Positions 8,268-52,965 of a DNA stretch of 64,000 nt are shown one piece after another. Origin of the DNA: Bartonella tribocorum CIP 105476 (GTDB taxonomy: Bacteria > Pseudomonadota > Alphaproteobacteria > Rhizobiales > Rhizobiaceae); NCBI RefSeq assembly GCF_000196435.1, contig NC_010161.1:744001-808000 (forward strand). Direction: 5' to 3'. The position numbers were made by a program, and so were the translations under genes. The stretch's first letter is position 1; the number at the start of each line of letters is the position of its first letter. The notes beneath the pieces were generated by a model. That model saw only the letters and a program-made list of their open reading frames with translations. It did no database searches and was not told the origin of the DNA.

Positions 8268-8690
8268 TTATAAAGATAATTCGCTATTTCATGCAGAATG
8301 AGAATTACGAATATCATAAGATTCCCTCATTTTGAACCTATTTATTGTATGTTGGAACAATCGAAATCATGTCTTTTGTACGTCAAAAGTTGAGAGAGTT
8401 GTGAGGATAAAAAATATTAAAGAAAGAAAAAAATGCCTCTTATGAATCGTCTCAATGGTTGTGCTACATTAGGGATTGGCAAAGTGTGAGATGGTACGAC
8501 TTTTTTTTCATAAACATAAAGATGGTGCAGCTCAAAGGGCTTATCCTTATACCACTCACGGGCACCGTCACGAAATAGGTTTGGGGGCTTTAAAAGAGAT
8601 CTCCTTAAAATAAACGCACGAATTGGAAACACAATGGCGTTTTGTTTTTATTGGAAAGATCTCTCGTACAATCAACTTTTCGTTGTTTTA
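8268..8690 (+). pseudogene. Decayed integrase relic, copy 1 (5' flank plus N-terminal domain)
   Basis: Remnant of a tyrosine-recombinase gene. The start region ATGCCTCTTATGAATC (8433-8448) is identical over 16 bases to the relic at 19909. Downstream, broken frames read HKHKDGAAQ, GHRHEIGLGALKEISLK and THELETQWRFVF, matching the N-terminal arm domain (DUF4102 type) of phage/island integrases and the relic at 51.0-51.3 kb. The sequence becomes unrecognisable after about 8690; middle and catalytic domains are gone. The 165 bp upstream of the ATG is also shared with other copies (TTGTACGTCA at 8376-8385 corresponds to TTGCACGTCA at 50979). Confidence 0.8.
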
Positions 8691-9151
8691 CATTATCATA
8701 AAATATTTTATTTAATAATAAAAAAAATCGCATGAAACGACATCCGTAAGATAACTCAATAATAATAAAAATTCATAGCATAATTTTTCATTATTACTGG
8801 ATATTTTATGCTTTATTATAGATAATAATACAGAGTAATACAATAATTATAAAGAGTATTATGAAGTAATTTATAATAAAAAAGAGATAGAAAATTAAGA
8901 GTTTATCAAGACATAAAAAATGTTATTACCTATGCCTATTATTGAAATATAATCGAACATTTTTTATAAATTTTTTAAATATACGATAATAACTGTAGCG
9001 TATAAGAGTAGGGGATAATTTCAAATCTATTTACCATAAATCAACCAACATCGTTTGATTATGAATCGCAAGGGGAGTGGATTATTGAAATGATATGTTT
9101 TCGGTGTTATTGGACTTTTTATCGTCATTGATATTTAGCTATAGAAGCTAA
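8691..9151 (+). other. AT-rich gap, possible further relic
   Basis: No gene recognised. Around 9018-9095 the sequence TTTCAAATCTATTTACC...ATCGCAAGGGGAGTGG faintly resembles the 5' flank of the integrase relic family, but the match is too weak to annotate. Confidence 0.25.
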
Positions 9152-9409
9152 ATGAGATTATCTGTTATCCTAAAAAATATTATGACTGTAGATATTGAGT
9201 ATTTTTTTTATGAGATGCTTTTGGAGGAGTATGCGAGGAAGTACAAAGCAAGGTTTATAAAACTTTGTGAGATAAATCACATGCGCAATTGGCAGGTGAA
9301 TGCACCCGTACGAAAAAATCCAGATTTTTATAGTTCAGATATGGTAGAATTTTTGTTCTTGAGAATAGGAAGGAAGTCAACCAATGAATTTGTAAAGTCA
9401 GTCACATAA
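9152..9409 (+). CDS. Small hypothetical ORF, 85 aa
   Basis: I do not recognise this protein. It has no signal peptide or membrane segment, is mixed in charge, and ends VKSVT. The section reading RKNPDFYSSDMVEFLF is faintly like the closing part of acetyltransferase-like domains in HAD-IIIC/FkbH proteins (N-x-P-V-x-x-FY pattern), which would make it a gene fragment, but this is only a visual impression. No good ribosome site precedes the ATG, and it lies in a decaying region between an integrase relic and the metallophosphoesterase. A 20-bp perfect palindrome (9518-9537) follows. Confidence 0.3.
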   Translation: MRLSVILKNIMTVDIEYFFYEMLLEEYARKYKARFIKLCEINHMRNWQVNAPVRKNPDFYSSDMVEFLFLRIGRKSTNEFVKSVT

Positions 9410-9517
9410 GTGAGGTTCCCAATGGAGCTCTCTGAGAGAAATTGATCTATCGACAAAGAAGGGAGAATTTTGTTCAGAGAAGAAGGGCAATAAAATTATG
9501 ATTTATAAAGGAATATG

Positions 9518-9537
9518 AAGTGAAAATATTTTCACTT
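9518..9537. repeat. 20-bp perfect palindrome
   Basis: AAGTGAAAATATTTTCACTT reads the same on both strands. It lies 39-58 bp beyond the stop of the metallophosphoesterase gene (minus strand) and 109 bp after the small ORF. It could be a weak terminator or a protein-binding site; no T-run follows in either direction. Confidence 0.5.
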
Positions 9538-9575
9538 TAGATTGTTTGGATAATGTTGGATATGCTTAAGAGTAT

Positions 9576-10466
9576 TTAAAGATTAATTGTTTCAGTACAG
9601 GCTATCTCGTTTTGGGGGGTGATAATGCTATAACGTTGCAACTGACAATGCCATTGATTTCGTAAGTGTTCAATGGAAAATAAATTAAAGCCTGCGGGTG
9701 GTTTTTTATCACCAAAAGCTTGTGATGCAGAAGGAACACCAACAATAGGGATTTTTTTAGTTGGTCCTTCAGTGTATTTTAAAGTGGGTAAATGAGTATG
9801 TCCGTGAAGAATAAGTTCGCAACCGTGATGTTTAATAACGTTTAGAAAACGTTTTGTATCCCGTAATTTTTTATGCCAGGACGTTGCTTTGGGAAAAGGG
9901 GGATGGTGGATCATGACGACACGAAAAAGGTTGCGCTGCGCTGCTTCATTTAAAAGGTGCGGTAACATTTGCGCTTGCATTTTACCAAAATAACCAGAAG
10001 CGTGAAAAGGGGGGGTCGCAATGGCGGAAGAAGCAGCTATGATGGCGACATCTTTGCGAATGCGCATATAAGGAAAAGGAAAGACGCTTTTTTGAGGCAC
10101 GTCACCTGTAATCCAAGGTTTAAAGAGAGTACATGCTTTTTGAAGGGCTCCACGGACATAGGCATCGTGATTTCCAAATGTCAAAGAAATATCTTGAGGT
10201 TGTCCCAAGTTAAGGAGCCAACGATGAGCTTGTTCAAATTCCTTATCGAGAGCAAGGTTCACAAGATCACCAGAGATCACAAGATGATCAGGCTTTTTTT
10301 GGTTCAAGGCATCTATTAAAGTTTCGAGGACATTTATGGTGATTTGATTCTTACGTTTTTTTTGCCAATTCAAATAACCGGTAAGACGCTTTCCAGAAAG
10401 TTCAAAAAGGGAAGGTTTTGGAAGAGGGGAAAGATGTACATCCGATATATGGGCAAGATAAAACAT
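9576..10466 (-). CDS. Calcineurin-like metallophosphoesterase
   Basis: Cytosolic metal-dependent phosphoesterase of 296 residues. All five metal-binding motifs of the family are visible in order: Asp9/His11 in HISDVHL, Asp67 in SGDLVN, Asn99/His100 in FGNHD, the HHPPF motif near residue 195, and HGHTHL near residue 225. It resembles the CpdA/3',5'-cyclic-nucleotide phosphodiesterase branch, but the substrate cannot be assigned. Single gene, flanked by decayed DNA on both sides. Confidence 0.9.
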   Translation of the reverse strand: MFYLAHISDVHLSPLPKPSLFELSGKRLTGYLNWQKKRKNQITINVLETLIDALNQKKPDHLVISGDLVNLALDKEFEQAHRWLLNLGQPQDISLTFGNHDAYVRGALQKACTLFKPWITGDVPQKSVFPFPYMRIRKDVAIIAASSAIATPPFHASGYFGKMQAQMLPHLLNEAAQRNLFRVVMIHHPPFPKATSWHKKLRDTKRFLNVIKHHGCELILHGHTHLPTLKYTEGPTKKIPIVGVPSASQAFGDKKPPAGFNLFSIEHLRNQWHCQLQRYSIITPQNEIACTETINL

Positions 10467-10959
10467 AAAATCTCATAGAGTATTAAAAATGATTTAAAGA
10501 ATAAGCATAAGATAAGTTTATGCTGAAAGGCAAGGAGGATTGTAAAATGAAAAATAGCCTATTGAAAATACGATGAAATATTGGAGAGAATTGATGTTGT
10601 ATTATATTTTTTATGAAAAAGAATAGGGCAATACAACAGATCATTCCTAGCAACCGATATGTCTTTTGTATGATAGGATAAATTTTAAAAGAATAGTCAT
10701 AAAATTTTAAGATTTTTAAACGGCTTTTATACGACCAAATATTATCATAAAAAAATCTAATCACTCAGTGAAAATGCAAAAGAATGTATTGTATTTATCA
10801 GGATTTTTTATGGCTTTACGCTGCCATATATCACTTTTAATGGGAGATGTTTTTACACAAAACAGAACGCTTTAAGAGGAATATCCCCCAATAAAATATC
10901 ATTATGTTGTACATTCACATATTTTTTGGAAAAATATTTTCTAGAGCGCTTGATTTCAT

Positions 10960-11285
10960 TTCACGAAAATTTTCAATTCTATGAAAAGTCTCGTTTATAA
11001 GATTTATTATGCACTACTATCTTTACACTTATACAGGTTGCTAACCAAAAGCATCATACTACTTCATCCCAACTTTATAAAAATCCTTACTTTAATAGGA
11101 TTCATAAGAAACATTTTTTTCTCCTTTTCAATAGTCTTTATTCATACAATTCTCTTCTAATGATGTGCAAGAGAACAATTTTCATTGATTTAATATGGAA
11201 AGGATTACAAATAAGGAAAACCCTACAGAGAAGAATAGCGCAATATGAATAAATGATAAATTATTTTATTATAAATCAATACCTT
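10960..11285 (-). pseudogene. Decayed integrase relic, copy 2 (minus strand)
   Basis: Read on the minus strand, this holds the same 5' flank as the other relics (TTGCACATCA at 11170-11161) followed by an ATGTTTCTTATGAATCC start block and AAAGTAAGGA, also present in the relic at 19.9 kb. Further on TATAAGTGTAAAGAT (11033-11019) is the counterpart of CATAAGCGTAAAGAT in the best-preserved copy and is identical over 15 bases to the relic at 41.0 kb. Reading frame is broken by many stops and indels; nothing beyond the N-terminal domain remains. Together with AT-rich DNA on both sides it fills the 10467-11363 gap. Confidence 0.75.
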
Positions 11286-11363
11286 ATCTAAATATAAAAA
11301 ACAAGTAAATACATAAAAAGATAAGCTGAATTTTAAAACTATTTTACGAAATCTTAAGATTTT

Positions 11364-13460
11364 TTAACGGCTTTCACGATACCACATGCTGCTCAACAGT
11401 AAAAGGCAAACAAGCAGTGCCAAAAAACCAGAAAATACCGAAAAATAAAAGGTATTGATTAAACGAGTTTCTGTCGCTTCTTTCAAAATAATTGAATGTG
11501 CTGGGGAAGATGATAGGCTTATTTTTGATTGAATCAGCTGGAAAGGAGGAAGATGAATGTTTTCTTTTCCATCAGGGTGTAAACGTCCAATGTAGCCACC
11601 AGTGTGCTTAATAATAGGGGCTAATTTTTCTTGTGTTGAAATTAAGTCAAACAATTCAAGATTATCGAGCATCCCTACAGAAGACAGTATTGTTAGATCG
11701 CCATTTTTGATGGTAAAAATCCCTGTCTCATCAGTGGCGGCAGTTGCGGTGAAGAGGCCTTCTTGCGCTTTAGTAAGGATGATCTGTTGTTTTTTCCCAG
11801 AAGGAAAAGTTATTTCAGCGGGTTCTGGATGGTCTTTCAGAGTTTGGCGGCGAATTGTTAAATGATGATGGCTGCTGGTCGCGCTTAATTTTTCTTCCTC
11901 AAGTTCTGGTTCTTTCATGAGCCAATGGGCAATTCTACGATAAAGAGCTGCATAAGGACCACCACCTTCAAAACCTCGTGCCCAAAGCCAACTTTCATCG
12001 GAAAGCAACATACCTACACGCCCTTTATCAACATGGGAAAGAAGTAAAAGTGGTTGTTCATCGGCTCCTTTCATGAGAGCAATGCCGTTGTTACTATTTT
12101 GAATAGCAATTTGTCGCAGCCATCGCCCCCATTGAGAAGCCTGAAGGTTAAGCGTTGCAAGATCCCTCGTAACAGGATGACGCTCACCCTCTCTGGTTAA
12201 TGTGGGACGAAAAGGCTTTTCAATAATATCTCCATTAGGCAATGCCGGTAGAATGCTTATTAAAGGTGTTTTTGCAAGTGAGTTTTTTTGGGTAAATTCA
12301 GGTCCTGTTACCATCAGCAATGCGCCACCCTTTTGTACATATTGGGCAATATAATCATAATAGATTAAAGGCAGAACAGCAGAGTGCTGGTAACCATCAA
12401 GGATGATGAGATCAAAGTTATTAATCTCTTCAACAAAGAGTTTTCTTGTGGGAAAAACCACCAAGGATAATTGGCTTAAAGGCGTATTATCTGCTTTGGT
12501 GGGGGGACGCAAAATCGTAAAGTGAACAAGATCAATATTGGAGTCGCCTTTTAAAAGGTCTCGCCATGTCCGTTCTCCATTATAAGGGGCCCCTGAAATA
12601 AGAAGAACGCGTAAATTTTCTCTAATGCCTTCAATGGTTGTTATGGCGCGGTTGTTTTCAAAGCTTAGTTCAGCTTTGTAAGATTCAGTTGTCGCTTGGA
12701 TAATATTTTTTTCAGCGTGAGTAAGGGTAATTTCAGTTTGAAAAATAATACCAGGAGTCACAGAATAATGGCCAACTTCTTGCCCATTAACACTAAGTGT
12801 AATATTGGCTTTCTGGGGTATTGTTTCTTGAGGGGCTCCTTGATCCTCTACCAAAATGGAGAGCTTTTGTGGTTTATTGACAAGGGCAAAGCGTGGAGGA
12901 GAAATAAACTTGATTTGACGATCAAATTCATCCGAACGCCCTGTGATCAAAGCATTAAGAGGTGCATCATGATGAAGATTTGATAGGTCAGGAATGTCAT
13001 GCACTTGTCCATCAGTGATAAAAATAGTTCCGGCATAACGAGAGGGCGGTACATCAGAAAGTGCTTGTGTTAAAGCATTAAACAACTTCGTTGAGGGAGC
13101 ATATCGGTTATCAGTAAGTTTTCCAGCTTCAATAAAACGTGGTTCAAATTGTGGATAATGTGCCAATGTTTCGATTAATTGCGCGCGCGCTTCATCACTG
13201 TCCTTTATTCGTGCTCCAAAAGTTTGGCTTTTGCTGCGATCAATAACAATACCTACTGTGCTTTTCAGGGGTTCGCGCTGTTCTTTGATAATCATTGGAT
13301 TGAGCAAAGCAAGAATGAGAGTGCTCAATGTCATCAGACGAAATAAAGATCCTTGACGTCGTGTAACGAGACCAACAACGACAAAAAGAATGGATATTCC
13401 GCTTAACAGCAGAATCCAAAAGAGCGGTAAAAAAGGCTGAAAAGTGAACAGTGGTATCAT
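11364..13460 (-). CDS. Large membrane protein of MoxR/DUF58 operon (last gene)
   Basis: Uncharacterised 698-residue inner-membrane protein. Two membrane helices at the N terminus (about 9-31 and 40-57) and one near the C terminus (about 670-692) frame a large extracytoplasmic or cytoplasmic region. The middle contains a glutamine-amidotransferase-like fold pattern (LIILDGYQHS then GGALLMVTGPEF, around residues 345-385), a feature common in this family but without an obvious catalytic Cys. The start overlaps the preceding gene by 4 bp, so it is the fourth cistron of the moxR operon. Likely works with the other three in an envelope-associated assembly or maturation process; the substrate is unknown. 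Confidence 0.85.
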   Translation of the reverse strand: MIPLFTFQPFLPLFWILLLSGISILFVVVGLVTRRQGSLFRLMTLSTLILALLNPMIIKEQREPLKSTVGIVIDRSKSQTFGARIKDSDEARAQLIETLAHYPQFEPRFIEAGKLTDNRYAPSTKLFNALTQALSDVPPSRYAGTIFITDGQVHDIPDLSNLHHDAPLNALITGRSDEFDRQIKFISPPRFALVNKPQKLSILVEDQGAPQETIPQKANITLSVNGQEVGHYSVTPGIIFQTEITLTHAEKNIIQATTESYKAELSFENNRAITTIEGIRENLRVLLISGAPYNGERTWRDLLKGDSNIDLVHFTILRPPTKADNTPLSQLSLVVFPTRKLFVEEINNFDLIILDGYQHSAVLPLIYYDYIAQYVQKGGALLMVTGPEFTQKNSLAKTPLISILPALPNGDIIEKPFRPTLTREGERHPVTRDLATLNLQASQWGRWLRQIAIQNSNNGIALMKGADEQPLLLLSHVDKGRVGMLLSDESWLWARGFEGGGPYAALYRRIAHWLMKEPELEEEKLSATSSHHHLTIRRQTLKDHPEPAEITFPSGKKQQIILTKAQEGLFTATAATDETGIFTIKNGDLTILSSVGMLDNLELFDLISTQEKLAPIIKHTGGYIGRLHPDGKENIHLPPFQLIQSKISLSSSPAHSIILKEATETRLINTFYFSVFSGFLALLVCLLLLSSMWYRESR

Positions 13461-18435: not shown

Positions 18436-19689
18436 GTGAATATAAGACAGAACTTCAAACAGGTTGCATGGTTACAAAAAAGTGATATCCAGACACTTCT
18501 TCGTGTTTTATCTTTAGAGGGGGAAGAGGCGCGTATCGTGGGGGGAGCGGTGCGCAATCAACTATTAGGGCAACCTATTAGTGATATTGATATTGCGACA
18601 ACCTGCTTACCGCAACAGATTATCACGCGTGTAGAAGAAGCTGGATTTAAAGCTATTCCTACAGGGATTGCGTTTGGTACAATCACAGTGGTTGCGCATT
18701 CATGTGCTTATGAGGTCACAACACTTCGCAGCGATATTGAAACAGATGGTCGTCATGCAAAAGTGGCTTTTGGTCGTGATTGGAAAAAAGATGCTGAACG
18801 GCGTGATTTTACGATAAATGCCCTTTATTGTGATGCTGCTGGCAACCTTTATGATGATGTGGGAGGTTTGAGCGATATTGAAAGCCAAACAGTTCGTTTT
18901 ATCGGTGTTGCAGAAAATCGTATTAGCGAAGATTATTTGCGTATTTTACGTTTTTTTCGCTTTTTTGCATGGTATGGAGTGGGGCGACCGGATGGGGAAG
19001 GATTGAAGGCATGTGTTCGTTTAAAAGATGGTTTACAAAAACTTTCTTCTGAGCGTATTTGGGCAGAAATGAAAAAGCTTCTTTTGGCTTCTGATCCAAC
19101 ACGTGCTCTTTTATGGATGCGACAAAGCAGAATTTTGTCACTCATTTTTCCTGAAACAGAAAAATGGGGCATTGATGCAATTCACGCATTGGTGGAAACA
19201 GAACAGACACTTGGTTGGAAAGTTGATCCATTTTTACGGCTAGAAAGTCTTCTTCCTCCTGATCCTATACGTCTTCATAAAATGGCACAGCGCTTGCGTT
19301 TTTCCCATAAGGAAACAACACGATTAAAGGAATGGGCTGAGTTAGAAATAATAAGCCAAAATTGTTCTGATCATTTTGTGCAAAAACTGATTTATTTTCA
19401 TGGGCGACAGCCGGTTTTAGATCAATTATCCTTATCTATCGCTGCATCACATGTCGATACTCTAGAAAAAGGGGATGCTTTGCAAAAAACAGAAGATTAT
19501 CTCAAACTTTATCAGCTTGTTCAAAAATGGCAGATTCCAACTTTTCCCATTAATGGTAACGATTTAATAAAAAAAGGTTTTTCAAAAGGTATCCTTTTAG
19601 GAAAAAAGCTTAAAGAACTAGAAATGATATGGGTTGAAAGTGGATTTTTAATGGATCGTCATGCATTATTAGAAAAAATTGATTTATAA
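18436..19689 (+). CDS. cca: CCA-adding tRNA nucleotidyltransferase / poly(A) polymerase family
   Basis: Class II nucleotidyltransferase that adds or repairs the 3' CCA of tRNA. The N terminus carries IVGGAVRNQLLG and the catalytic pair in SDIDIATT (about residues 35-55), then RRDFTINALYCD and an RISEDYLRILRFFRF motif typical of the family. Length (417) is normal for the alphaproteobacterial form. Translation appears to start at GTG 18436, preceded by AAAGG; no upstream ATG is in frame close by. Family members are hard to split into CCA enzymes and poly(A) polymerases by sequence; CCA addition is favoured because no other candidate is in the window and the gene sits in a conserved place beside moxR. 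Confidence 0.88.
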   Translation: MNIRQNFKQVAWLQKSDIQTLLRVLSLEGEEARIVGGAVRNQLLGQPISDIDIATTCLPQQIITRVEEAGFKAIPTGIAFGTITVVAHSCAYEVTTLRSDIETDGRHAKVAFGRDWKKDAERRDFTINALYCDAAGNLYDDVGGLSDIESQTVRFIGVAENRISEDYLRILRFFRFFAWYGVGRPDGEGLKACVRLKDGLQKLSSERIWAEMKKLLLASDPTRALLWMRQSRILSLIFPETEKWGIDAIHALVETEQTLGWKVDPFLRLESLLPPDPIRLHKMAQRLRFSHKETTRLKEWAELEIISQNCSDHFVQKLIYFHGRQPVLDQLSLSIAASHVDTLEKGDALQKTEDYLKLYQLVQKWQIPTFPINGNDLIKKGFSKGILLGKKLKELEMIWVESGFLMDRHALLEKIDL

Positions 19690-19747
19690 TATAGGGGTAT
19701 AAGGGGTGTAAAAGTACGGTTGTTTTTTTTAAAAATTAATATATTCA

Positions 19748-20095
19748 TTTATAATAAGAATTTATCATTATTCATATGAAATAAGAGCGCCGAATATTGT
19801 GAGATTATCTTATTTCAAACTTGTTCATATAACATCAATAAAAATTATTGCTTTATGCGCTATACGCGAGGGAGGTCGTGTGAGGAAAAACGGTTATAGG
19901 AAGGAAGAATGCCTCTTATGAATCATAACAAAGTAAGGAGTGTTGCGAGATTTTGAACTGACAAAAAGAATAATAATAACGGTTTGTTCTTTGGGTGAGC
20001 ATAAAGAGGGGGATGTCAAATGGTTCTTACTATGAGGGATATTTAATCATTCACAGGTGGTGATATGAAATGGATGTAATGAGCAATAGAATGGC
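19748..20095 (+). pseudogene. Decayed integrase relic, copy 3
   Basis: Plus-strand relic. The flank contains GAATATTGTGAGATT and ACATCAATAAAAATTATTG, homologous to other copies, then the start block ATGCCTCTTATGAATC at 19909-19924, identical to copy 1. Beyond it, GAGCATAAAGAGGGGGATG and CATTCACAGG...TGAAATGG keep the order of the N-terminal integrase motifs (HKRKDG, then IHGRRHEMG). No open frame remains. The rest of the 19690-20384 gap shows nothing recognisable. Confidence 0.75.
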
Positions 20096-21059: not shown

Positions 21060-21295
21060 TATTATGGTGAAAAGTAGGATATTTAATGAGGTTGGATCAT
21101 TCATTTTGACTGAGATGTGACCATAACAGGAAAGTTTTTTCTTTAAGAGTGTTTATTTACCTGTTCTCTCCATTTTTATCAGGGAAGAGAAGGGTTTTGA
21201 TTGATTGAATAGGAACAGAGATTTGAAATACAAGAAACTTACGGTATTTGGGTTTCTTATTCACTCTGTAAAACGATAAATTATCATTAAACTCA
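21060..21295 (-). pseudogene. Decayed integrase relic, copy 4 (minus strand)
   Basis: On the minus strand this reads TACCGTAAGTTTC, TTTCAAATCTCTGTT, CAATCAATCAAAACCC and then TTTCCTGTTATGG, in the same order as the flank and start block of the other copies. Coding homology after the start block is faint. It fills most of the gap between trmL and petA; the remaining bases (20862-21059 and 21296-21437) hold only the expected promoters. Confidence 0.55.
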
Positions 21296-27054: not shown

Positions 27055-27282
27055 CATTATGCTATTTGCCAGCTTTTTATGTTGTCCCAACAGGCTTTGC
27101 CTTTGAGAAGACTTATAGTAGGAATTTTTCTTTCTTTTTTCAAGAGTTTATCCGTATAACCGTTCAACTTTTGAGGTGTAAGCCAATGGTTTTGATTATT
27201 TCGTTATCAATAGATTTGAAATGAACCTTATGATATTGGGCGTTTTTATTCAGCTTACAAAACAATTAATTTTATAAATCAA
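27055..27282 (-). pseudogene. Decayed integrase relic, copy 5 (minus strand)
   Basis: Minus-strand reading gives TATCATAAGGTTC, TTTCAAATCTATTGAT, TTACACCTCAAAAGTTGA (TTACACCTCA at 27181-27172), a degraded start block ATTCCTACTATAAG and then TCTTCTCAAAGGCAAAGCC...AAGCTGGCAAATAG. The last part parallels CGTCTCAAGTGTCAAGGTC...GGCTGGCAAAGTG at 51.05 kb. It sits between the L,D-transpeptidase terminator and the 3' end of pth. Confidence 0.7.
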
Positions 27283-27343
27283 TATGTTATATAAAACTTC
27301 TATAGAGAAGAGTTGATTTTTTGCCGATGAGAGAAATAAGCGA

Positions 27344-27925
27344 TTAGAGTAAGTTCTTGTTTTTTATTGTCTGTGAAACTTCATTCATAAAGAGAGATTT
27401 GTCACCTTTTATGAGGAGAGCAATATTTTTTGCAAGTGCATCTAAGAGAGGGGATAACCATTCTTGATCAAATTTGGTAAAATTTCCTAAAACATGCTGA
27501 TGAACAAGTTCTTTGCTTCCAGGATGACCAATTCCTATACGTATACGACAATAGTCAGTACCACAATGAGCATCGATAGACTTAATACCATTATGCCCAT
27601 TATTTCCTCCTCCGATTTTTATACGAACTCTTCCCGGAGATAGGTCTAACTCATCATAAATGATGATCAAGTTCTTCAAATCTAATTTATAAAATCGCAA
27701 AGCTTCGCCAATAGCTTGACCAGAGAGATTCATGAAAGTTTGCGGTTTTATAAGAAAAACTTTCTCATTATTGATGAAACCATTGGAGATTTCTGCTTGA
27801 AACTTCTTCGACCATGGAGAAAAAGAAAAGGACTGATAAACAGCATCAACAGCCATAAAACCGATATTATGGCGGTTATTTCGATATTGTGAACCAGGAT
27901 TGCCAAGACCAGCAATAAGCCACAT
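27344..27925 (-). CDS. pth: Peptidyl-tRNA hydrolase
   Basis: 193-residue Pth, which recycles tRNA from stalled peptidyl-tRNA. N-terminal signature [19 protein letters not shown] with the catalytic His in RHNIGF (position 20), Asn in [10 protein letters not shown], and Asp in [13 protein letters not shown] (about 93). [13 protein letters not shown] gives the substrate-groove Asn. Co-directional with rplY, 66 bp downstream of it; the intervening GC-rich hairpin may separate or modulate expression. Confidence 0.96.
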
Positions 27926-40010: not shown

Positions 40011-40939
40011 AGCGACACTCCTTAACTTAAATTCACATTTTTTCACATCATATACGTGACAAACTGAATATAATCTGAATGACTTTTGGCTTTATTTTGA
40101 CAAAACGAATAAAGAGCTATTTGGTTGACAAAAAATGATAAAATAAACGAGGAATAAAGATCTTTTTTCATAAAAAAACACTCTATTTATGTTAACTGAC
40201 AAAAATTATATCTATAAAGTCTCATTTTCTACAAAAATAACAAAACTTTTTATTGAAGAGATAATTCTTGCATCATACGATTCCATATAACTTAAAAAAA
40301 CAAAAATATGAATCAAAGATATTACCTCTATTATCATAGAGTTATAATTTTATGATAAGAAAATATTTTATATTTTAAAGTGCATAGATCATTCTTCATT
40401 TTTCGATAAGTTAAGTTTTTTCTGTAGATTTGGAAGAAAAATCAGTGAGCAAGATGTTTTTCTTCAAGAGATTTACAATTTGCTTACCAAAAAAGCAAAG
40501 GGTTATCATAAAGATTTTTATAATTAAGTTTCCGTATTTATTTGACTGGTATATTATTTATATGTTTTCGAGAACTTTGTATTGATTTTCATTAACAGAG
40601 AGCTGGTAGAAAAAGAGGTGCTTTGTAGAGAAAATTTAAGAATCTTGTTGTTTATTTTTATGGATGCATCCCTCAACTTTTAAAATGTATTAAACGAGCA
40701 TATTTTTTTGATTAATAAAAATGGTACCATATGAAGGCGTAAAAATAAAAATATATTTTCCATCTTGAGTATTCTTTTAAATTTGACTTTACACTTTTCA
40801 AAAGTATTCACTGTATTTAGAAGAAAATATTATGTATTTCTTTAGGTTATTTTTATAGTTTAACTTAAAAGACATGATTTTTATTTAAAATAAAACGCTA
40901 TTATACTTTGCATGCACTTATTAAAAAATATTTCGTGTT
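40011..40939 (-). other. Long AT-rich gap, promoter side of BA14K gene
   Basis: No gene identified in this 929-bp stretch. The portion nearest the BA14K start holds its ribosome site and presumably its promoter (TTGTCA at 40107-40102 and 40132-40127 on the minus strand). Remainder is AT-rich without clear motifs. Confidence 0.35.
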
Positions 40940-41190
40940 TTTTTCAAGGAAACTTCAGTGTATTGCTCGTAAATGATATGCTGCATCATCTTTACACTTA
41001 TAAAAGTACAAGGGGGTTGTATATCTATGATCTCTTTATTTTGTGATAGGTTTTGACATTGAGATAGTTCAAGAGAGATGAGAATCTTTTTAAAATGAGT
41101 TTTATTTAAAAGAACGTTATTTTTATCAGGTGCAAGTCGAATGTTTTTTGGTTTTTATGCAATATAAAAAACGATAAATATATTTATTAC
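40940..41190 (-). pseudogene. Decayed integrase relic, copy 6 (minus strand)
   Basis: Minus-strand reading shows TTGCACCTGA (41135-41126), then TCTCTTGAACTATCTCAATG TCAAAACC, matching the CTCTTTTGAACCGTCTCAAG block of copy 8, and TATAAGTGTAAAGAT (41002-40988), identical over 15 bases to copy 2. Frame is destroyed. The rest of the gap up to uvrB (41191-41456) shows nothing. Confidence 0.65.
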
Positions 41191-41456
41191 ATCAAATCTT
41201 ATGGTCATAAAAACATTTTCTTTAATTTTTTATTCCTTATTGGGAATTTAGAAATGTTTTTAGAAAATCTTATCGCTTTTTAGTATAATATATTTAATAA
41301 GAAAAAATTGTTTAAAAAGATTTATATTTGAAGTTTTTCAAGTATTTTTTCTTTTTTTGGTTTTTCAAAACGTTAGTGTCTATGGTTGAATCTTCGTGAG
41401 CAAGATTTGTACCCCTTATAAGAGTTAATGGGAGCATGAGTGGGGTGTTTTCTGTA

Positions 41457-43592: not shown

Positions 43593-43884
43593 TGTTGTAT
43601 CCTTTGATAGAAAAGTGCTCGTAATTTTAAAGGGAATACGAATTTTTACAACTTCATTACGATAACAGCAAAACGTTATTGAACAAGTTTATTTTGGTTG
43701 ACTGAAGCTTTCGTTAGGATATTGATCAAGTTTTTTCTATGAGATGAATTCTTCGAAATATTTCTTTGTAAAAGACATGTTTGTGGTTGTTCATGGACAT
43801 TATTTATATTTTTGCCATGATGATGTTCAAGAGGGGGCATTATGACTGTTATGAATTATATGTGGTATGTTTGGGAGCCAAAGA

Positions 43885-44424: not shown

Positions 44425-44442
44425 GAAAAAGATCGTAGTTTT

Positions 44443-44476
44443 CGGATTCCAAAAGTAATTTTGGAAGCCGTTTTTT
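44443..44476 (+). terminator. Intrinsic terminator in the greA 5' leader
   Basis: Hairpin CGG-A-TTCCAAAA / TTTTGGAA-G-CCG (44443-44470) with a 4-base loop and a run of six T (44471-44476). It stands on the plus strand 43 bp before greA, while the only upstream gene is divergent. It therefore ends either a small RNA or a short greA leader transcript (attenuator). Confidence 0.8.
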
Positions 44477-44518
44477 GTATTTTTATTAAACCTTCCGTGT
44501 AATAGAAAGGGACGGATT

Positions 44519-44992: not shown

Positions 44993-45006
44993 ATATCTAA
45001 AGTGTT

Positions 45007-46065
45007 ATGCGTGTGTCTTTGGAAGAAACTGAAATTATAGCGCCTCACTTTAAAAGGCCTTTATCGGGAGAGACATCTACGATTGTTCAGCTTGTTCCAT
45101 TGATGCGCGAACAAGGGGTGCGTATATCTACTCTGGGGGTTGGATTGCCAAAAAAAATGCCGGCTCTTGCCTTTAGAGACCTTTTCGGACTTTGGAAAAG
45201 TCCGAAAGGGAAGTCGTTTCGTATTTGGCATGCAAGGCGTAATATTGAGATGCTTTGTGGGATCTTTTTGCGCGATATTTTGAAAATGAAGCTGAAACTT
45301 ATCTTTACATCGGCTTCACAACGCCATCATAAGCCTTTTACAAAATGGTTGATTCGCCGTATGGATAGGGTTATTGCGACCAGTACACATACGGGCGCTT
45401 ATCTAGAAGTGCCACATAAGGTTATTATGCATGGGGTGGATGTAAGGCGTTTTACGCCACCACAGACGCATGATGATTGTTTTGCTTCAACAGGATTTCC
45501 AGGAAAATATGCGGTAGGGTGTTTTGGGCGTGTGCGTTATTTAAAGGGTACGGATTTGTTTGTCGAGGCAATGATAGCATTATTGCCTCACTATCCTGAG
45601 TGGACAGCGCTTATCGCTGGTCGTACGACAGAGCAACATTATCATTTTGAAAAAGAATTGCGCCAAAAGATTGCTAAGGCTGGTCTGGATGATCGTATTA
45701 TTTTTCTTGGTGAGATTTTAGACATCCCTTTGTGGTATCGCCGCTTGTCGCTGTATGTAACACCTTCGCGTCTGGAAGGTTTTGGTTTGACGCCTTTAGA
45801 GGCAATGGCATCACAGGTTGCGGTTGTAACGAGTGATGTAGGAATTTTTAAAGAGTTGGTGGTGGAGGGAACAGGAACGGTTGTAAAAGTAGGAGATGGT
45901 TCGGCTTTAACGGCAGCAATTGAACCTTATTTTGCTGATGTAGAAAAAACATTGGCCGCTGGAAAGAAAGCTTTAACGCACGTTCGTACGCATTTTCCTT
46001 TGGAAAAAGAGGCAAACGAGATTGAAAGTGTTTACAAAGAACTGTTTGCGGAAAAAATACCTTAG
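45007..46065 (+). CDS. lpcC: LPS core glycosyltransferase (GT4), LpcC-like
   Basis: 352-residue family-4 glycosyltransferase, GT-B fold. N-terminal acceptor domain begins ETEIIAPHFKRPLSGETSTI, and the C-terminal donor domain has YAVGCFGRVRYLKGTDLFVEAM and the EX7E region SRLEGFGLTPLEAMASQ. This pattern matches LpcC, a mannosyltransferase of rhizobial lipopolysaccharide core. The sugar specificity is inferred from the family. Only 14 bp after greA, so probably co-transcribed with it. Confidence 0.88.
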   Translation: MRVSLEETEIIAPHFKRPLSGETSTIVQLVPLMREQGVRISTLGVGLPKKMPALAFRDLFGLWKSPKGKSFRIWHARRNIEMLCGIFLRDILKMKLKLIFTSASQRHHKPFTKWLIRRMDRVIATSTHTGAYLEVPHKVIMHGVDVRRFTPPQTHDDCFASTGFPGKYAVGCFGRVRYLKGTDLFVEAMIALLPHYPEWTALIAGRTTEQHYHFEKELRQKIAKAGLDDRIIFLGEILDIPLWYRRLSLYVTPSRLEGFGLTPLEAMASQVAVVTSDVGIFKELVVEGTGTVVKVGDGSALTAAIEPYFADVEKTLAAGKKALTHVRTHFPLEKEANEIESVYKELFAEKIP

Positions 46066-46544
46066 ATTATATCAAAAGTCTTCTTGAGGAATGATAAAAA
46101 GTGCTTTCCTTAAAGATTATTTCATAATCATCAAGAAAATAGCGCAATGATATAAACGTTATTTTATAAAGTTGATCTTGGCTTTAGTAGAATACTATAA
46201 GAAGTTCTAAAAAATTTAAATAAAAGACTAAAATGTATAGGCTTGAGAGCGATATGTGGCTTATGATAAAAGCACACAAGGAGGGAGAAAAGCTATTTTC
46301 ATTCTAGTGATATTTTAGAATAAGAAAATAGTGTTTTAACTCAAGTCCAGAGATTTATGCACTATCTTAACGGTGGTGTGCTGGTATTGTTACATTTTAT
46401 AAAATTTAAATAGATAGCAAAAAAATGCTTTCTTATCTTAAAAAAAGATAATGATTGTATCGCCATGAATAAAATATTCATCCATATTTTCAATTAATTC
46501 ATAATAAGATGGGTCTAAGATCAATATATTGATTCATATAGATA
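46066..46544 (+). other. AT-rich gap after lpcC with a hairpin
   Basis: No gene seen. A hairpin with arms CTATTTTC-TTCTA and TAGAA-GAAAATAG spans 46293-46331, about 230 bp after lpcC, followed by TGTTTTAAC. It could be a late terminator. Confidence 0.35.
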
Positions 46545-46890
46545 ATTTATCTCTTCAATTTGAATAAGAACTTTGAATATCGTAAGATTTTCTCATGTCA
46601 AATCTGTTAATATTACATCAATGAGAGCCACAATTAGAAGATGGCATGTGGTAGATAAAAACTATTGAAGATAAGGTGTAAAGAGATTTCTTATAAATTG
46701 CCTGAAATGCAGATTTTTGTAACATTAACAGAAAGAAAATAGTATGGTGGTGTATTTATATCTTTTTTTCTGCTATCGACTTGCAGCTTATTATTTAAAT
46801 AAAAATAATAATGATCATTTTATCTTTCATGAAGACTGTCATGAAATGGGAGTGAAGAGCATTGTGAGATGTTTTTTTAAGATTATGAGT
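46545..46890 (+). pseudogene. Decayed integrase relic, copy 7
   Basis: Plus-strand copy. The flank GAATATCGTAAGATTTTCTC (46574 on), TCAAATCTGTTAATATTACATCAATG and GGCATGTGG-GATAAAAACT (46640 region) follow the order seen in copy 8. Coding homology is reduced to TGTCATGAAATGGGAGTG (about 46847), equivalent to the RHEMGL motif of the integrase N-terminal domain. The rest of the gap to trkH (46891-47255) shows nothing recognisable. Confidence 0.55.
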
Positions 46891-47255
46891 TTGTAACAAA
46901 TGATATTTTTTTTACAAAGACATGACTTATTAGAGAAGAAACATTTTTATCAGTAAATATTCATATTTTTTGTGTGAGAGCTTATTCGTAAAAAAGGATG
47001 TTCTATCTATCCATTTTATTTGATAGAGAATCTTAATAATGTAATGTGAAGTGTTATACGTTATGGCTTTGAAAGCTGTTGACACTTGATTGTTTTTTCG
47101 AAATATTTTTATTGTCGATCATTTATCCGCTAATTTATTTAAAATTTTAAGAAATATTCAGTTGATTAATTGAAGATTGAATATTATTCCGCATATTGTT
47201 CATGCCTGTTTGTCTTGTTAATTTTTTACCATGGTAGAATAAAATGCTCTATGCA

Positions 47256-48662
47256 TTAGAATTGTTCACGCCAGAAAGCGGGAATAAAAAGGACGAATAT
47301 TGTTATGATTTCAAGGCGTCCAGCTAACATGAGAAAACTTAAAATCCATAAAGCATTATCGTTGATTGTAGAGAAATTACCAACGGGGCCAATAATATCT
47401 CCAAAGCCTGGGCCAACATTTGAAAGTGCTGTTAAGACGCCCGTAAAAGAAGAGGTAAAGTCAAGACCGGTTGTAAGCAAAAGTGCAGTGCCGATAATAA
47501 GGCAGAACATATAAAGACAGACAAAAAACAAAACGGCTTGAGCAACATCGTTTGATATATTTGAGTGATCGTAGCGCGCTTTTACAACGACATGAGGAGA
47601 AAGAAGTTTTTCTATATTGGTTTGTGTAATACGCCAAAGAATAATAAGGCGATTGATTTTCATGCCCCCAGAAGTAGAGCCAGCACATCCGCCTGTAAAA
47701 GAAATAATGAAGAAAATTCCAAGCGCAAATGGTCCCCAAAGTTGATAATCTTCAGCGCTGTAACCTGTGGTGCTAATAATGGATGAAAGGTGAAAAATGA
47801 CATCAAGGAAAATCAAGTGGAAAGCGCGATGATCATGAAATCGTAGCCATGCTGCTAAAGCAAAGCTGAAAAGGAGAACGATGTGGAGAAAAACAATCAC
47901 TTGGGGGTCAAGAAAGCGTTTGGAGTGTCCAGGAAGGACTAATTTAACATAAAGTACGAAGGGCAAAGCAGAAAGCAACATGAAGATTGTTGAAATAATT
48001 AAGATGGCTGGTATATCAGCAAAATAGCCAAAAGAAGCATCATGCGTTGAAAAACCAGCCGTTGCTACTGTACTCATTGCATGGTTAATGGCATCAAATA
48101 AACTCATGCCTGCAGCAAAATAAGAAAGCATACAAGCCAACGTGAGTCCAACATAAGCGATAATAATTCCGTTAGCAATTTGGTTGATACGAGGCAATAT
48201 TTTTTCAGATTTATCAGATGATTCCATATGGAAAAGTCGTACGCCCCCCACACGCAGTGAAGGCAAAAGCAAGAGAGCTAAACCGATAAAACCAATTCCT
48301 CCAATCCAGCATATAATAGAACGCCATAACAAAATACTTCGCGATAAATGATCAAGACCAGAAAGAACAGTGGAACCTGTTGTTGTAATGCCAGAAACAG
48401 ATTCAAAAATGGCTCCTGCGAGAGAAATAGGAAGGGGAGAAAGATAAAGCGGTAAGGCACCTACGATACTTCCTGTAAGCCAAAGACAAACAGTGAGCAT
48501 AAAGCCAAGCCGTGCTGAAAAACGACAAGTAGCTCCTTTCGTTGCTAAAAGAAGCAGTGTGGCTAACATGGTGGTTATGGCACAAGAATAGAGAAAGATT
48601 ATCCAATTACGGTTATTGTCGTGCAAATCCACAAAAATTGGCAAAAGCATCGCTCCTCCCAT
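47256..48662 (-). CDS. trkH: TrkH-family potassium uptake protein
   Basis: 468-residue integral membrane K+ transporter subunit. Selectivity-filter-like repeats are present: SGITTTGSTVL (P1), VATAGFSTHDAS (P2), STTGYSAEDYQL (P3), ALSNVGPGFGDIIG (P4). It normally works with TrkA. The assigned ATG (48662) is doubtful: upstream codons 48663-48710 are open and read VIFQFIINVCARFALI, the expected TrkH N-terminal helix, but there is no ATG, GTG or TTG in this stretch before a stop at 48719. Possible starts are ATT 48707 (AGGGA upstream), ATG 48662, or ATG 48650 (GGGAGGAGCG upstream). Confidence 0.92.
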   Translation of the reverse strand: MGGAMLLPIFVDLHDNNRNWIIFLYSCAITTMLATLLLLATKGATCRFSARLGFMLTVCLWLTGSIVGALPLYLSPLPISLAGAIFESVSGITTTGSTVLSGLDHLSRSILLWRSIICWIGGIGFIGLALLLLPSLRVGGVRLFHMESSDKSEKILPRINQIANGIIIAYVGLTLACMLSYFAAGMSLFDAINHAMSTVATAGFSTHDASFGYFADIPAILIISTIFMLLSALPFVLYVKLVLPGHSKRFLDPQVIVFLHIVLLFSFALAAWLRFHDHRAFHLIFLDVIFHLSSIISTTGYSAEDYQLWGPFALGIFFIISFTGGCAGSTSGGMKINRLIILWRITQTNIEKLLSPHVVVKARYDHSNISNDVAQAVLFFVCLYMFCLIIGTALLLTTGLDFTSSFTGVLTALSNVGPGFGDIIGPVGNFSTINDNALWILSFLMLAGRLEIITIFVLFIPAFWREQF

Positions 48663-48963
48663 GATTAACGCAAAACGTGCACAGACATTGATAATAAACT
48701 GAAAAATGACCGTTCCCTATCTTTGTATCTCTTTTTTTATTATGGCTTTGTGCTCATAAAAATTTACGTTTTTCTCTTTATAGGATAAAGATTAATTCTT
48801 AACATGAATATGCCTTGATGAATTGGCAATCAGACCTTTTCATAAAACTTGAAAAGGAGTATACCTATAGCATAATTGAGACTCTTTAAAAATATTTTTT
48901 TAAAAGGCTGCATTCCGTTATCATTTATAGAATAATTAAGTTGTAAAAAGTGAAGGGGATTGA

Positions 48964-49920
48964 ATGATACAATCGCATATTCGTTTGCTGATTATTGGCT
49001 CAGGTCCGGCTGGTTATACAGCGGCGGTCTATGCGGCAAGAGCAATGCTCCAGCCGGTTTTAGTGACAGGCTTGCAGCAGGGTGGACAGTTGACAATTAC
49101 AACGGATGTTGAAAATTATCCGGGTTTTTCTGATCCTATTCAGGGACCATGGTTAATGGAACAAATGGCAAAACAAGCTGAAAATATGGGGGCAAAAATT
49201 GTCTATGATACAATTATAAAGGCAGATTTATTGAAGTATCCTTTTATCTTATATGGGGATTTAGGAACACAATATTCTTGTGATGCACTGATTATTGCAA
49301 CAGGTGCTAAAGCGCGCTGGCTTGGTTTAGAAAGTGAGCAGACCTTTATGGGCGGTGGTGTTTCTGCTTGCGCTACATGTGATGGCTTTTTTTATCGGGA
49401 TAAGGATGTTATTGTTGTAGGAGGAGGAAATACGGCCGTTGAAGAAGCCCTTTATTTATCGCATATAGCAAAAAGTGTAAGCGTGGTTCATCGGCGAGAA
49501 CAGTTTCGGGCAGAGAAAATTTTGCAAGATAGGTTGTTTGCTTGTAATAATGTACGTGTTCTTTGGGATCATGTGGTCGAAGAAATTGTGGGGATGCCAG
49601 CTCAAGGGGCAAGGGGGGCTGTTGTAACAGGGGCACGTTTGAAAAATGTTAAAACAGGTGACGAGATGAAAGTGGAAGCAGAGGGAATATTTATTGCCAT
49701 TGGGCATGATCCTGCTGTTTCTCTATTTGAAGGACAATTGAAACAAAAACAAAGTGGCTATTTATGGACAGCACCAGATTCAACAGCAACAAGCATTGCG
49801 GGTGTTTTTGCTGCAGGGGATGTAACAGATGAAACATTTCGCCAAGCTGTAACAGCCGCGGGAAGGGGATGTATGGCAGCATTAGAAGCAGAACGGTTTT
49901 TAGATCTATCTAAGCGTTAA
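48964..49920 (+). CDS. trxB: Thioredoxin reductase
   Basis: 318-residue low-molecular-weight thioredoxin reductase (FAD, NADPH). FAD site IIGSGPAGYTAAVYAARA, redox-active Cys136/Cys139 in CATCDGF, NADPH site VVGGGNTAVEEA, and closing FAD motif FAAGDVTDETFRQAVTAAG. Reduces thioredoxin for redox homeostasis. Followed by a LysR regulator 42 bp downstream on the same strand. Confidence 0.97.
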   Translation: MIQSHIRLLIIGSGPAGYTAAVYAARAMLQPVLVTGLQQGGQLTITTDVENYPGFSDPIQGPWLMEQMAKQAENMGAKIVYDTIIKADLLKYPFILYGDLGTQYSCDALIIATGAKARWLGLESEQTFMGGGVSACATCDGFFYRDKDVIVVGGGNTAVEEALYLSHIAKSVSVVHRREQFRAEKILQDRLFACNNVRVLWDHVVEEIVGMPAQGARGAVVTGARLKNVKTGDEMKVEAEGIFIAIGHDPAVSLFEGQLKQKQSGYLWTAPDSTATSIAGVFAAGDVTDETFRQAVTAAGRGCMAALEAERFLDLSKR

Positions 49921-49962
49921 TAATTCATTGAGAATAGAGAGAATCTAGAGGTAGAATTAATT

Positions 49963-50868
49963 GTGGCGCCACCGTTGGATTGGGATAAGTTAAGGGTTTT
50001 TCATGCTGCAGCAGAAGCGGGATCTTTTACGCACGCTGCCCAAAAGCTTCATTTATCCCAATCAGCAGTTTCACGACAGGTATCGGCTTTAGAACAAGAG
50101 GTTGGAGTATCTTTATTTCAGCGTCATGCGCGTGGTTTGATTCTTACACAACAAGGAGAAACTCTTTATCGTACAGCGCATGACGTTTTGATGAAGCTTG
50201 AAAGTGTACGTTTGCAATTGAGTGAAAGCTACGCAAAACCAACAGGGCATTTGCGTGTAACTTCGACCTTTGGAATGGGGGCAGGGTGGATTGCAGAGCG
50301 TATGCCAGAATTTCTTAGTCTTTATCCAGATATGCAGGTTCAGCTTTTGCTTTCCGATGAAGAACTTGATTTGACAATGTGTCATGCAGACTGTGCTGTT
50401 CGACTCCATCAACCCCAACAACCTGATCTTATACAAAGAAAATTATTTACAATTCATATGCATGTTTATGCTTCAGAAAAGTATATTGCTAATTATGGAA
50501 AACCTGAAAAATTGTCTGATCTCGATGAACATCGTATTATTTCATTCGGAGAACCTGTTCCCCCTTATTTGTCGGGTTTAAATTGGTTGGAAAAAGCTGG
50601 TAGAAATGATGGATCATTGCGTGTTTCAGTCCTACAAATCAACAATATCATCTCAATCAAGAATGCGCTTATGCGTGATCTTGGAATTGCTGTGCTGCCT
50701 GATTATATTGTCAACAATGATGAGCACTTGGTACGTCTTTTTCCTGATATGGTTGATATTCCTTCTTTTGATACTTTTTTTTGTTATCCTTATAATTTAA
50801 AGAATTTGGCAAGGTTGAATGCTTTTAGAGATTATATTTTTTTGAAAGCGCGTCAGTGGTCTTTTTAA
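49963..50868 (+). CDS. LysR-family transcriptional regulator
   Basis: 301-residue LysR regulator. N-terminal winged helix (LRVFHAAAEAGSFTHAAQKLHLSQSAVSRQVSALE) and a ligand-binding domain of the substrate-binding-protein type. Starts at GTG 49963 with a poor ribosome site; no in-frame ATG upstream. trxB-lysR adjacency is conserved in relatives. Ligand and targets unknown; family members often control neighbouring redox genes. Confidence 0.93.
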   Translation: MAPPLDWDKLRVFHAAAEAGSFTHAAQKLHLSQSAVSRQVSALEQEVGVSLFQRHARGLILTQQGETLYRTAHDVLMKLESVRLQLSESYAKPTGHLRVTSTFGMGAGWIAERMPEFLSLYPDMQVQLLLSDEELDLTMCHADCAVRLHQPQQPDLIQRKLFTIHMHVYASEKYIANYGKPEKLSDLDEHRIISFGEPVPPYLSGLNWLEKAGRNDGSLRVSVLQINNIISIKNALMRDLGIAVLPDYIVNNDEHLVRLFPDMVDIPSFDTFFCYPYNLKNLARLNAFRDYIFLKARQWSF

Positions 50869-50914
50869 TATCCATGCCTTAGATTTATAAGGAACAATTA
50901 ATTGTTTTGCACCT

Positions 50915-52140
50915 TAAGACTCTCTTAATATTCTCTTCTTTTAAATTTTCCCATATTGAATCAATCAAAATCACTTTCTTGCACGTCACAAGCGGGTGGG
51001 ACATGTGGATAAAAATTGTACAAGAAAGGCATGCCTCTTTTGAACCGTCTCAAGTGTCAAGGTCTGTCGAAACATGGGGGCTGGCAAAGTGTGTGATGGT
51101 GCCGGCTGGCTTCTTCATAAGCGTAAAGATGGAAGGGTTCAATGGCTTTATCGTTATAACGTTCACAGGGCACCGTCGTGAGATGGGGCTGGGTGCCCTG
51201 AAAGATATCTCTTTAAAACAAGCGTGTGAGTATGCAACGCAATGGCGATCTGTTTTACATGCAGGTATGAAGGTCGTGACCCTATTAAAGAACGCAATAA
51301 ACAAAAGTGTGAGGCAATAGCAATCTCTGTTATTTAAAGGATATTTCTCTCAAAACTTTTGAAAATCGAAAAGCAGAATTAAAAGGCGATGGTAAAGAAA
51401 GCCGTTGTTTTTTTACCCTTAAAAATTCATATTTTCCCTTCAACTAGGTTGCCTTCTCTTTTCAGAAATTACAAAGAACAGAAATACGCTCATTTTTATT
51501 TGGCATTAAAGGCTAATATGACTCGTAAAGCGCTGAACTATCTTTGTTTCAAATATGCTGCGACTCGTTAGATTTGGATGTTGATTGATAAGCAGTAAAA
51601 TAAGCACGGATTTTCTTAAGGAAACAACGCTATAAAACTCAAAACAACATACCGCCAATGGATTGGGGAGGTATCTCAATTTTTTACAAAATACTTTGCC
51701 AAATAATAACCATAATCACAACTGACTTTGCGTTTGCTTATTTTTACAAGGAGACATTCTTTTCCCTTATGTCATATTCATAAAAATCAGGTTGAGGATG
51801 ATATTTGGATCATTCTTGATTCGAGAATATGAAAGACCGACAGATACGATAACAGAGTTTCACGTGCCTTTATCATTAGAGGGATTAGAAATTTTAAAAC
51901 AAGAGCGTCTACTGTCTCACAAAGATTTTTTCTGTTAAAAATCGCCATTACTTTGCTGATAGTTCTATATCAAAGGATATGAAAAAAATAAACTTGAAGC
52001 TTGTTCGCATGGGTTTTACTCTAGTTGACAGAACTGGCTCGCTGAAACAACCAATGCTCCTTATGAGGTCTCTGAAACCATTTTAGGTCATACGGCGGAA
52101 GGTCTTCGTGTGGATAAATACTTTTGCAGAAAGGGATAAA
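50915..52140 (+). pseudogene. Integrase pseudogene, best-preserved relic (copy 8)
   Basis: Tyrosine-recombinase gene spread over the full length but broken by frameshifts and stops. Flank 50915-51030 (TTGCACGTCA at 50979-50988), start ATGCCTCTTTTGAACC at 51031. Frames in order: N-terminal DUF4102 domain (HKRKDGRVQWLYR, GHRREMGLGALKDISLKQA, ATQWRSVL), middle (ENRKAELKGDGKESR; NIPPMDWG), and C-terminal catalytic region (HGF then NWLAETTNAPYEVSETILGH, TAEGLRVDKYFCR ending near 52140). The catalytic Arg of HGFR and nucleophile Tyr context are degraded. Related to prophage or island integrases of Bartonella. Nothing else recognised between it and 52433. Confidence 0.88.
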
Positions 52141-52432
52141 ATATCTTTTATAAATGCGTTCAAATGTGAAGGCCGTTATAACATTGAAAATTGGACAATC
52201 GTATGAGGGTGATTTCTTTCTATTTAATTATAGAGATAAATCCAAGATTGAGAAAAAATTAAAGCTATGTGTTTGTTGCATAGCAGATACGCTTAAGTCT
52301 TTATTGTGCTTCTGCTTATAAAATGACATAGAATATTATCTCTTGATTATGTTGCCTCCCATTGCATTTTCTTGAGTGTTCCCTTACGAAGATCTTACAG
52401 ATCGATTTTATCTCTGAAGATTTTCCAAATTC

Positions 52433-52459
52433 GCCGGGCATTGGTCCGGCTTTTTTTTT
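52433..52459 (+). terminator. Orphan GC-rich terminator
   Basis: GCCGG-GCATTGGT-CCGGC hairpin (52433-52450) followed by nine T (52451-52459). This is the strongest terminator signature in the region, yet no intact gene precedes it; it may mark the end of a lost gene or an unrecognised RNA. Confidence 0.75.
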
Positions 52460-52639
52460 ATTCCTAAAAGAATGCCAAGAAATAGAAAAGATTTAATTGT
52501 AAAGACATTTAATTGTAAGGATAATTGTTTTTTTAAAGTACGAGGTCTTTCTTAGTGTTATAAATTGGATAGAGAAGGCAAATTTTATTAATTTGCGCGC
52601 TTCTTTAAGAAATGTTTTTCAGTATGCCTAAGCTTTCTG

Positions 52640-52965
52640 ATATCCGTGAATAGCATCACGTAAAAGTTTTGACAAAATGGTATAAGATTCACTGTACAAC
52701 CATTTTTACACTCATGAAGAAGTAGGTTGAGTATTATCATTCTTTATAAGCTTTCAATAGTTGCGTAATTCTTGCATTTGAGAGAGGGAGGTATTTTGCT
52801 CCTTTTTTTTAAGTTTTTACCAACACATCAACTCTGCTTGTGAGATATATAAGAAAATGATATCGACTGGTCTCAGATAGGCAGATTTGAAATAAGAGAA
52901 TCTTACAAGGGGATAATTCAAGTTAAGAAACAATGAATTATTATAAATCAATATTCTTCTATGTA
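52640..52965 (-). pseudogene. Decayed integrase relic, copy 9 (minus strand)
   Basis: On the minus strand: TTGTAAGATTCTCTTATTTC, CTCACAAGCAGAGTTGATGTG, GGTAAAAACTTAAAAAAAAGG and ATACCTCCC follow the same order as the flank and start block of copy 8. Then CTTCTTCATGAGTGTAAAAA TGG translates LLHECKNG, matching the LLHKRKDG block of copy 8. It converges with copy 8 across a 500-bp stretch. No open frame. Confidence 0.7.

Follow-up and report, generated by a model that had tools for sequence, protein, structure and literature searches.

Among described systems, the closest are the P4/CP4-type integrase islands and phage satellites, the fha-repeat of Bartonella grahamii, the bacterial MITEs, and the integrase fragments of Xylella fastidiosa. 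The Bartonella element considered here resembles the islands and satellites in its integrase domains, an HTH/excisionase-like gene, a helicase, defence cargo and a length of about 15 kb. Its short copies recall MITEs: both are brief non-coding parts of a larger element, scattered through gaps, with short direct repeats. For X. fastidiosa, the consulted portions of PMC2605562 record 13 truncated integrase fragments in four strains; these, like the Bartonella copies, are truncated integrases resulting from the decay of integrated elements.

The window, the whole 64,000-nucleotide stretch that was analysed, corresponds to positions 744001–808000 of a 2,619,061-base contig of Bartonella tribocorum CIP 105476. 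A sequence-only reading had reported nine decayed copies of one integrase gene in its intergenic gaps, and the observation of nine related segments is confirmed. The exact shared stretches which it cited were found where it had placed them, ATGCCTCTTATGAATC at 8433 and 19909 (+) and TATAAGTGTAAAGAT at 11019–11033 and 40988–41002 (-), each with a chance expectation of 0.00. Using blastn (E≤0.01), eight of the nine segments were linked to at least one other, and 40940–41190 to none. An nhmmer profile of 1849 positions, built from 12 long copies in the same genome and from none of the nine, matched eight of them at E≤1e-3; there were no matches in 20 dinucleotide shuffles of the window or in the reversed window. 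The ninth gave only a weak profile match (40813–40723 (-), E=0.005) and was recognized by alignment: against profile consensus positions 1–700, 41330–40650 (-) scored 624, compared with 379 ± 26 in 300 shuffles (z=9.3), the best stretch being 41260–40658. The score of its opposite strand was 424; in nine control gaps, taken on both strands, z ranged from -1.7 to 1.2. The window revealed no Rfam match and no tRNA. As claimed, all nine copies lie between gene-like ORFs (at least 80 aa). Shorter ORFs lie in or beside copies, for example 50907–51320 inside one of them.

Most copies start somewhat further 5' than the sequence-only reading had them, at one common left end. All nine begin at or near the left end of a parent element and stop at differing points. 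On the plus strand, the left-end stub at 8260–8648 (profile positions 4–397, E=4.3e-65) begins 117 bp past the stop of the gene at 7304–8143, and that at 19741–20073 (4–327, E=5.7e-32) begins 52 bp past the stop of the gene at 18436–19689; a further stub occupies 46526–46881 (4–358, E=5.1e-20). The minus-strand stubs are 10798–11284 (2–463, E=5.9e-18), with its left end 80 bp past the stop of the gene at 11364–13460; 21139–21295 (8–163, E=3e-14), which lies wholly upstream of the integrase start; 27055–27287 (2–240, E=8.3e-20), with its left end 57 bp past the stop of the gene at 27344–27925; and 52590–52953 (5–373, E=6.1e-24), which faces the longest copy. The latter, 50877–52102 (+; 4–1246, E=4.6e-252), contains a broken integrase, keeps two thirds of the profile and has its left end 9 bp past the stop of the gene at 49963–50868. 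The most decayed copy, 40658–41260 (-), corresponds approximately to profile positions 1–650.

The claim that the family is that of an integrase is borne out weakly by a window fragment (Pfam Arm-DNA-bind_3, 1.3e-4, below the cut-off) and clearly by an intact relative, which contains Arm-DNA-bind_3 (3.7e-16), Phage_int_M (5.4e-6, at the cut-off) and Phage_integrase (9.7e-10) domains and matches a PHROG integrase (4.9e-37). With arm-binding (residues 17–88), central and catalytic domains, the parent gene belongs to the tyrosine recombinase (phage integrase) family. Plausible residues for the catalytic R-H-R-H-Y motif are visible by eye in its translation. The nearest solved structures are pieces of CP4-like integrases (E=2e-4). 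With 40 of 163 candidates scored, the longest window copy matches at least 51 places in its own genome, of which 12 besides itself are nearly full length. Counting it, 13 long copies were examined, and in eight of them the integrase frame stays open for 389 codons or more. All these long copies begin at the same sharply defined left end, ATTGATTTATAATGATAAT, which precedes the integrase start by about 170 bases; outside it their flanks differ. The left-end consensus is AYAASRYATTGATTTATAATGATAAT, and a logo drawn from 48 copies supports a common left end.

Reading from the left end, the gene order is tyrosine integrase, a small HTH/excisionase-like gene (a weak match to Pfam HTH_17, and 5.9e-7 to PHROG excisionase and transcriptional regulator), a DUF3987 helicase, cargo and a separate right end. 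The helicase and cargo genes were scanned in one copy (seven ORFs, two of which are halves of one ORF); besides the DUF3987 helicase it has a restriction-modification gene of type ISP and genes for solenoid-repeat proteins. The gene set of P4-like and PICI-type satellites (integrase, AlpA-like regulator, replication gene) is represented, the helicase from that one copy; no capsid-size or packaging genes were seen among its seven ORFs. The identity of the parent with the fha-repeat of Bartonella grahamii was considered and not upheld. That repeat carries the fha/hec operon, and the same seven ORFs of one copy gave no FHA hit; the consulted portions of the papers on that repeat (PMC2697382, PMC2847970) mention no stubs of this kind.

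A common right edge, defined from repeats between copies, was established in eight of 12 long copies. It lies 14.8–15.9 kb from the left edge in seven of these eight and 26.3 kb from it in the other, so that the source measures about 15 kb, has a right end of its own, and is not an element with little more than an integrase as had been proposed. Several long copies are flanked by direct repeats. Those of the copy at 1110 kb are 15 bp long and a relative has uninterrupted sequence there; the two flanks of the copy at 507 kb do not come from one such uninterrupted site. Phage genes, for major head protein, DNA methylase, transglycosylase and tail collar protein, adjoin several long copies or are entered by them. 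Frames of at least 110 codons stand just outside the left end of long copies in 6 of 12 cases in this genome and 20 of 51 in named genomes, and are rarer at short copies (8 of 81 and 0 of 4, respectively). The counterpart of the 21.3-kb window stub in Bartonella sp. AU18XJBT is followed, about 200 bases further on, by the start of a long copy, which indicates that long copies land in core gaps too.

Stubs are numerous in this genome. The left end is kept (start at profile position ≤15) in 102 of 132 profile hits in the sampled sequence; 71 of these go no further than position 443, near integrase codon 90, while 19 stop at 444–1700 and 12 beyond, proportions that are not genome-random since the 24% of the contig sampled was chosen around matches and left ends. 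A left-end 19-mer with up to three mismatches has 136 sites in the genome versus five for the reversed control. Because this 19-mer recovers only four of the nine window copies, the true number of left ends is probably above 200. Across 61 Bartonella genomes, this one included, it has at least 60 sites in 19, at most 10 in 23 and an intermediate number in 19, with a maximum of 184 in one genome and 0 to 7 per genome for the control. The best 80 of 287 integrase loci in the named genome collection all belong to Bartonella; outside the genus, 12 of 16 order-level relatives have matches, at most six each.

Synteny was investigated in 20 other Bartonella genomes (40 stretches), comprising the nine nearest relatives and 11 more distant ones, over all window copies except 27287 and 41260. 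For six copies, seven to nine of the nine nearest relatives have a counterpart with matching gap and strand: 8260 in seven (the gap being empty in relatives G048 and G023), 11284, 19741 and 21295 in eight each, and 46526 and 50877 in all nine. Copy 52953 is present in none of the nine. In the 11 distant genomes, gaps for which both neighbouring genes could be located hold no copy, except for separate ones in G020 (10.8–11.3-kb gap) and G052 (19.7–20.4 and 20.9–21.4-kb gaps); here the 8260 gap was scorable in no genome, and two other gaps were unscorable in one or two of the 11. An additional copy occurs in the 20.9–21.4-kb gap of G023. Some gaps have thus been hit more than once. The copy-free gap at 48.7–49.0 kb gave no hits in all 21 genomes.

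At 43847–43850 the window has an empty site, at which G048 carries a young copy of 572 bases (profile 2–566) flanked by CTTCATA. Three young copies of the B. tribocorum genome (right ends 401, 389 and 378) are shared with G062, their sites being empty in seven, seven and four of the other eight near relatives; the remaining relatives did not align on both sides or, at the first site, have a separate copy about 60 bases off (G023). Such short copies are already short wherever they are seen at young sites. Compared with the empty sites, short inserts entail little or no loss of target DNA in seven of eight cases, exactly so in the clearest; in the G052 insert about 150 bases of target were lost. 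Most short copies have the left end exactly and pass, where they stop, into target DNA that is still present. Direct repeats at the edges of short copies include CTTCATA, TTTTATTYGAA, AAATACAA and GCATAT, their length differing by site, and longer ones at two sites (CTTAAGAATTTA-like and TTGCAAGAGCAAT-like) require mismatches. Over 71 short copies the mean edge-similarity score is 5.72 versus 5.20 ± 0.13 for permuted pairs (z=4.0, 40 permutations).

These results divide the original interpretation. The copies do belong to one integrase family, are numerous, lie in both orientations, and are old and decaying, and an ancestral multiplication is upheld. Their nature was misjudged: they are truncated left ends of a larger element, from repeated landings in several lineages. 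Most of them are not whole integrase genes that have eroded, since young short ones are already short where sister species have empty sites, and a single ancestral burst is contradicted by separate younger insertions in G020, G048, G052 and the B. tribocorum genome together with G062. True decay also occurs, the 50.9-kb copy being variously deleted internally in relatives.

The right ends of the copies cluster, nine of 60 falling within nine bases (reached in 0.0015 of simulations). A quick tree built from 74 left ends places young short copies next to long ones. The eight copies with a right end at 415–430 require seven changes on this tree, against a mean of 7.7 after shuffling (132 of 500 shuffles were as low); this end class is scattered and hence arose repeatedly. 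The right-end classes A, B and D cluster on the tree, with orthologues left in. An integrase-like half-site near the right junctions was sought and two tests failed (p=0.15/0.28 and 0.44/0.20), leaving the pseudo half-site idea unsupported. The G020 insert has at its right edge a motif that was considered as a shared right end or terminal inverted repeat; it proved to be ordinary integrase coding sequence. Among 12 rows with a shared flank, no site was found to be full in one genome and a stub in another; three of these rows involved the stub at 2432436 of the B. tribocorum genome, which was rejected as such a pair because its flank is element sequence and the outer flanks mismatch. Nested landings (16 rows) fall at positions 65 to 1243 of the older copy, at no single site.

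On the left-end side of short copies, the neighbouring gene presents its 3' end 40 times and its 5' end 16 times (p=0.0018; within 100 bp, 17 versus 1), and the right side leans the same way, 27 versus 16. These counts use ORFs of at least 100 aa and drop copies screened by another copy, leaving 56 left and 43 right sides. Targeting of gene 3' ends was considered for the left-end bias and not retained; as the right side leans likewise, the bias may be due in part to gene-end gaps tolerating insertions.

The explanation that we favour, and to which we would give an even chance, is that the nine copies are stubs left by repeated, integrase-linked truncation of Bartonella integrative elements of about 15 kb, of which the left ends survive. 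The integrase would insert an element at a site of low specificity, leaving a short stretch of target at both edges. Later, we infer, the copy of that stretch on the right would recombine with some point within the integrase gene and so remove the rest. The remaining stub would be immobile, lose its reading frame and drift, and many such landings in several lineages would fill the intergenic gaps. Against this stand the failed half-site tests, the lack of a full/stub pair among the rows compared, the target loss in G052, the clustering of classes A, B and D, and a cargo scan confined to one copy. Direct one-ended insertion fits the facts almost as well. Here the integrase would join the fixed left end to the target, the other end being closed at a variable point by way of small circles or an incomplete copy; short pieces would thereby enter directly, with a short target duplication. 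We regard this as possible but doubtful. It accounts for the fixed left and variable right end, for young short copies at sites where no relative compared has a long one, and for a target stretch duplicated where the integrase sequence would read otherwise; the clustered right ends, on the other hand, need explaining, and we know of no precedent for one-ended insertion by a tyrosine integrase. The landing of long copies in core gaps, as in Bartonella sp. AU18XJBT, also speaks against it, making a full-length precursor available for truncation. That a tyrosine integrase joins a fixed left end to nearly any gap and closes the variable end with a short target duplication, so that the element sows truncated copies genus-wide in the manner of 5'-truncated LINE elements, seems to us rather unlikely.

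The abundance of short copies, the clustering of their right ends and some clustering of labels on the tree would also suit a re-mobilised mini-element, MITE-like, in which short copies with two working ends are copied in trans by the integrase. This is improbable given that there is no common right end and no terminal inverted repeat, that the 415–430 class is scattered and that young short copies stand beside long ones. Lower still we place an integrase-only element that multiplied once in an ancestor, all copies being eroded whole genes. Such a history agrees with broken copies common to relatives and with the internal deletions of the 50.9-kb copy; it is very hard to reconcile with long copies that belong to elements of about 15 kb, a left end kept far more often than other parts (102 of 132), young copies that are already short, and insertion ages that differ between lineages. 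Finally, the stubs might be kept as a source of the arm-binding domain of the integrase, blocking new landings, a reading suggested by the many right ends that lie close to where that domain finishes. All 50 scorable rows, however, have a stop ahead of the junction (from 54 rows, duplicates and orthologues included, less two cut pieces of long copies and two without a start), which renders this scarcely credible, and domestication of the stubs was rejected on these reading frames.

Repeated landings of one integrase-carrying element supply part of the long gaps of Bartonella genomes, and the shared and private insertions form a fossil record which could serve as phylogenetic markers. How a tyrosine integrase leaves one fixed and one variable edge is a question that can be tested. 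No prior description of this repeat was found in full-text searches of open-licence papers, although an earlier notice is possible. Islands with integrases, remnants of them and short repeats are all familiar; in these searches we met no account of the present variant, a family of repeats made in this way whose left end is fixed and whose right end varies. MITEs are recognized by terminal inverted repeats and two fixed ends. The Bartonella stubs lack such repeats, have a single fixed end with no right end in common, and come from a parent with a tyrosine integrase. The Xylella fragments, as far as the consulted portions of PMC2605562 describe them, are few and mostly in prophage remnants, whereas the Bartonella stubs stand by the dozen, alone between core genes, with the left end fixed. 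Unlike P4/CP4 islands, which are tied to one tRNA or gene site, the Bartonella element has many landing sites in one genome and is accompanied by numerous left-end stubs.

Seven of the 12 long copies (the left parts, with the integrase gene, of the ~15-kb integrative elements) that the B. tribocorum genome carries besides that of the window are located at 1.06–1.18 Mb of the contig, within the region 1.05–1.19 Mb (stretches L118–L124). Every long copy whose flanks were scanned, in this region and at 559 kb (L127, L128), adjoins or enters phage genes, those at the flanks specifying a major head protein, a methylase, a transglycosylase and a tail collar protein, with a terminase nearby. The 1.05–1.19 Mb region is apparently a prophage riddled with satellite-like elements.

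Left-end sites, scored as 19-mer matches with up to 3 mismatches, number 184 and 147 in the compared genomes G055 and G052, respectively, as many as or more than in the source genome (136). Several young copies were seen in the small part of G052 looked at.

Facing pairs of left ends are frequent (L032, L038, L048; window 50877–52953), some later copies lie inside older ones, and a 130-bp part (profile positions 138–267) of a stub, as the short left-end remnants are termed, is tandemly repeated at L037:552–1347. In several stubs of different genomes, for example L014, L019, L020 and L067, the integrase frame is lost near the same place, at about codon 14–21 (..NIGGWQIV stop), which hints at a run of G prone to slippage.

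Another integrase family, 54% identical, is represented by two copies (G000:C2:375607–376746 and 520762–521901), both within a 1.8-kb repeat (95% identical).

A very long ORF with YadA-like head and stalk repeats (L126:8007–20000) begins where the copy at 193 kb has its right edge. Inside this copy is a type ISP restriction-modification gene (L125:17314 to L126:2275), and the ~15-kb elements may therefore ship defence systems.
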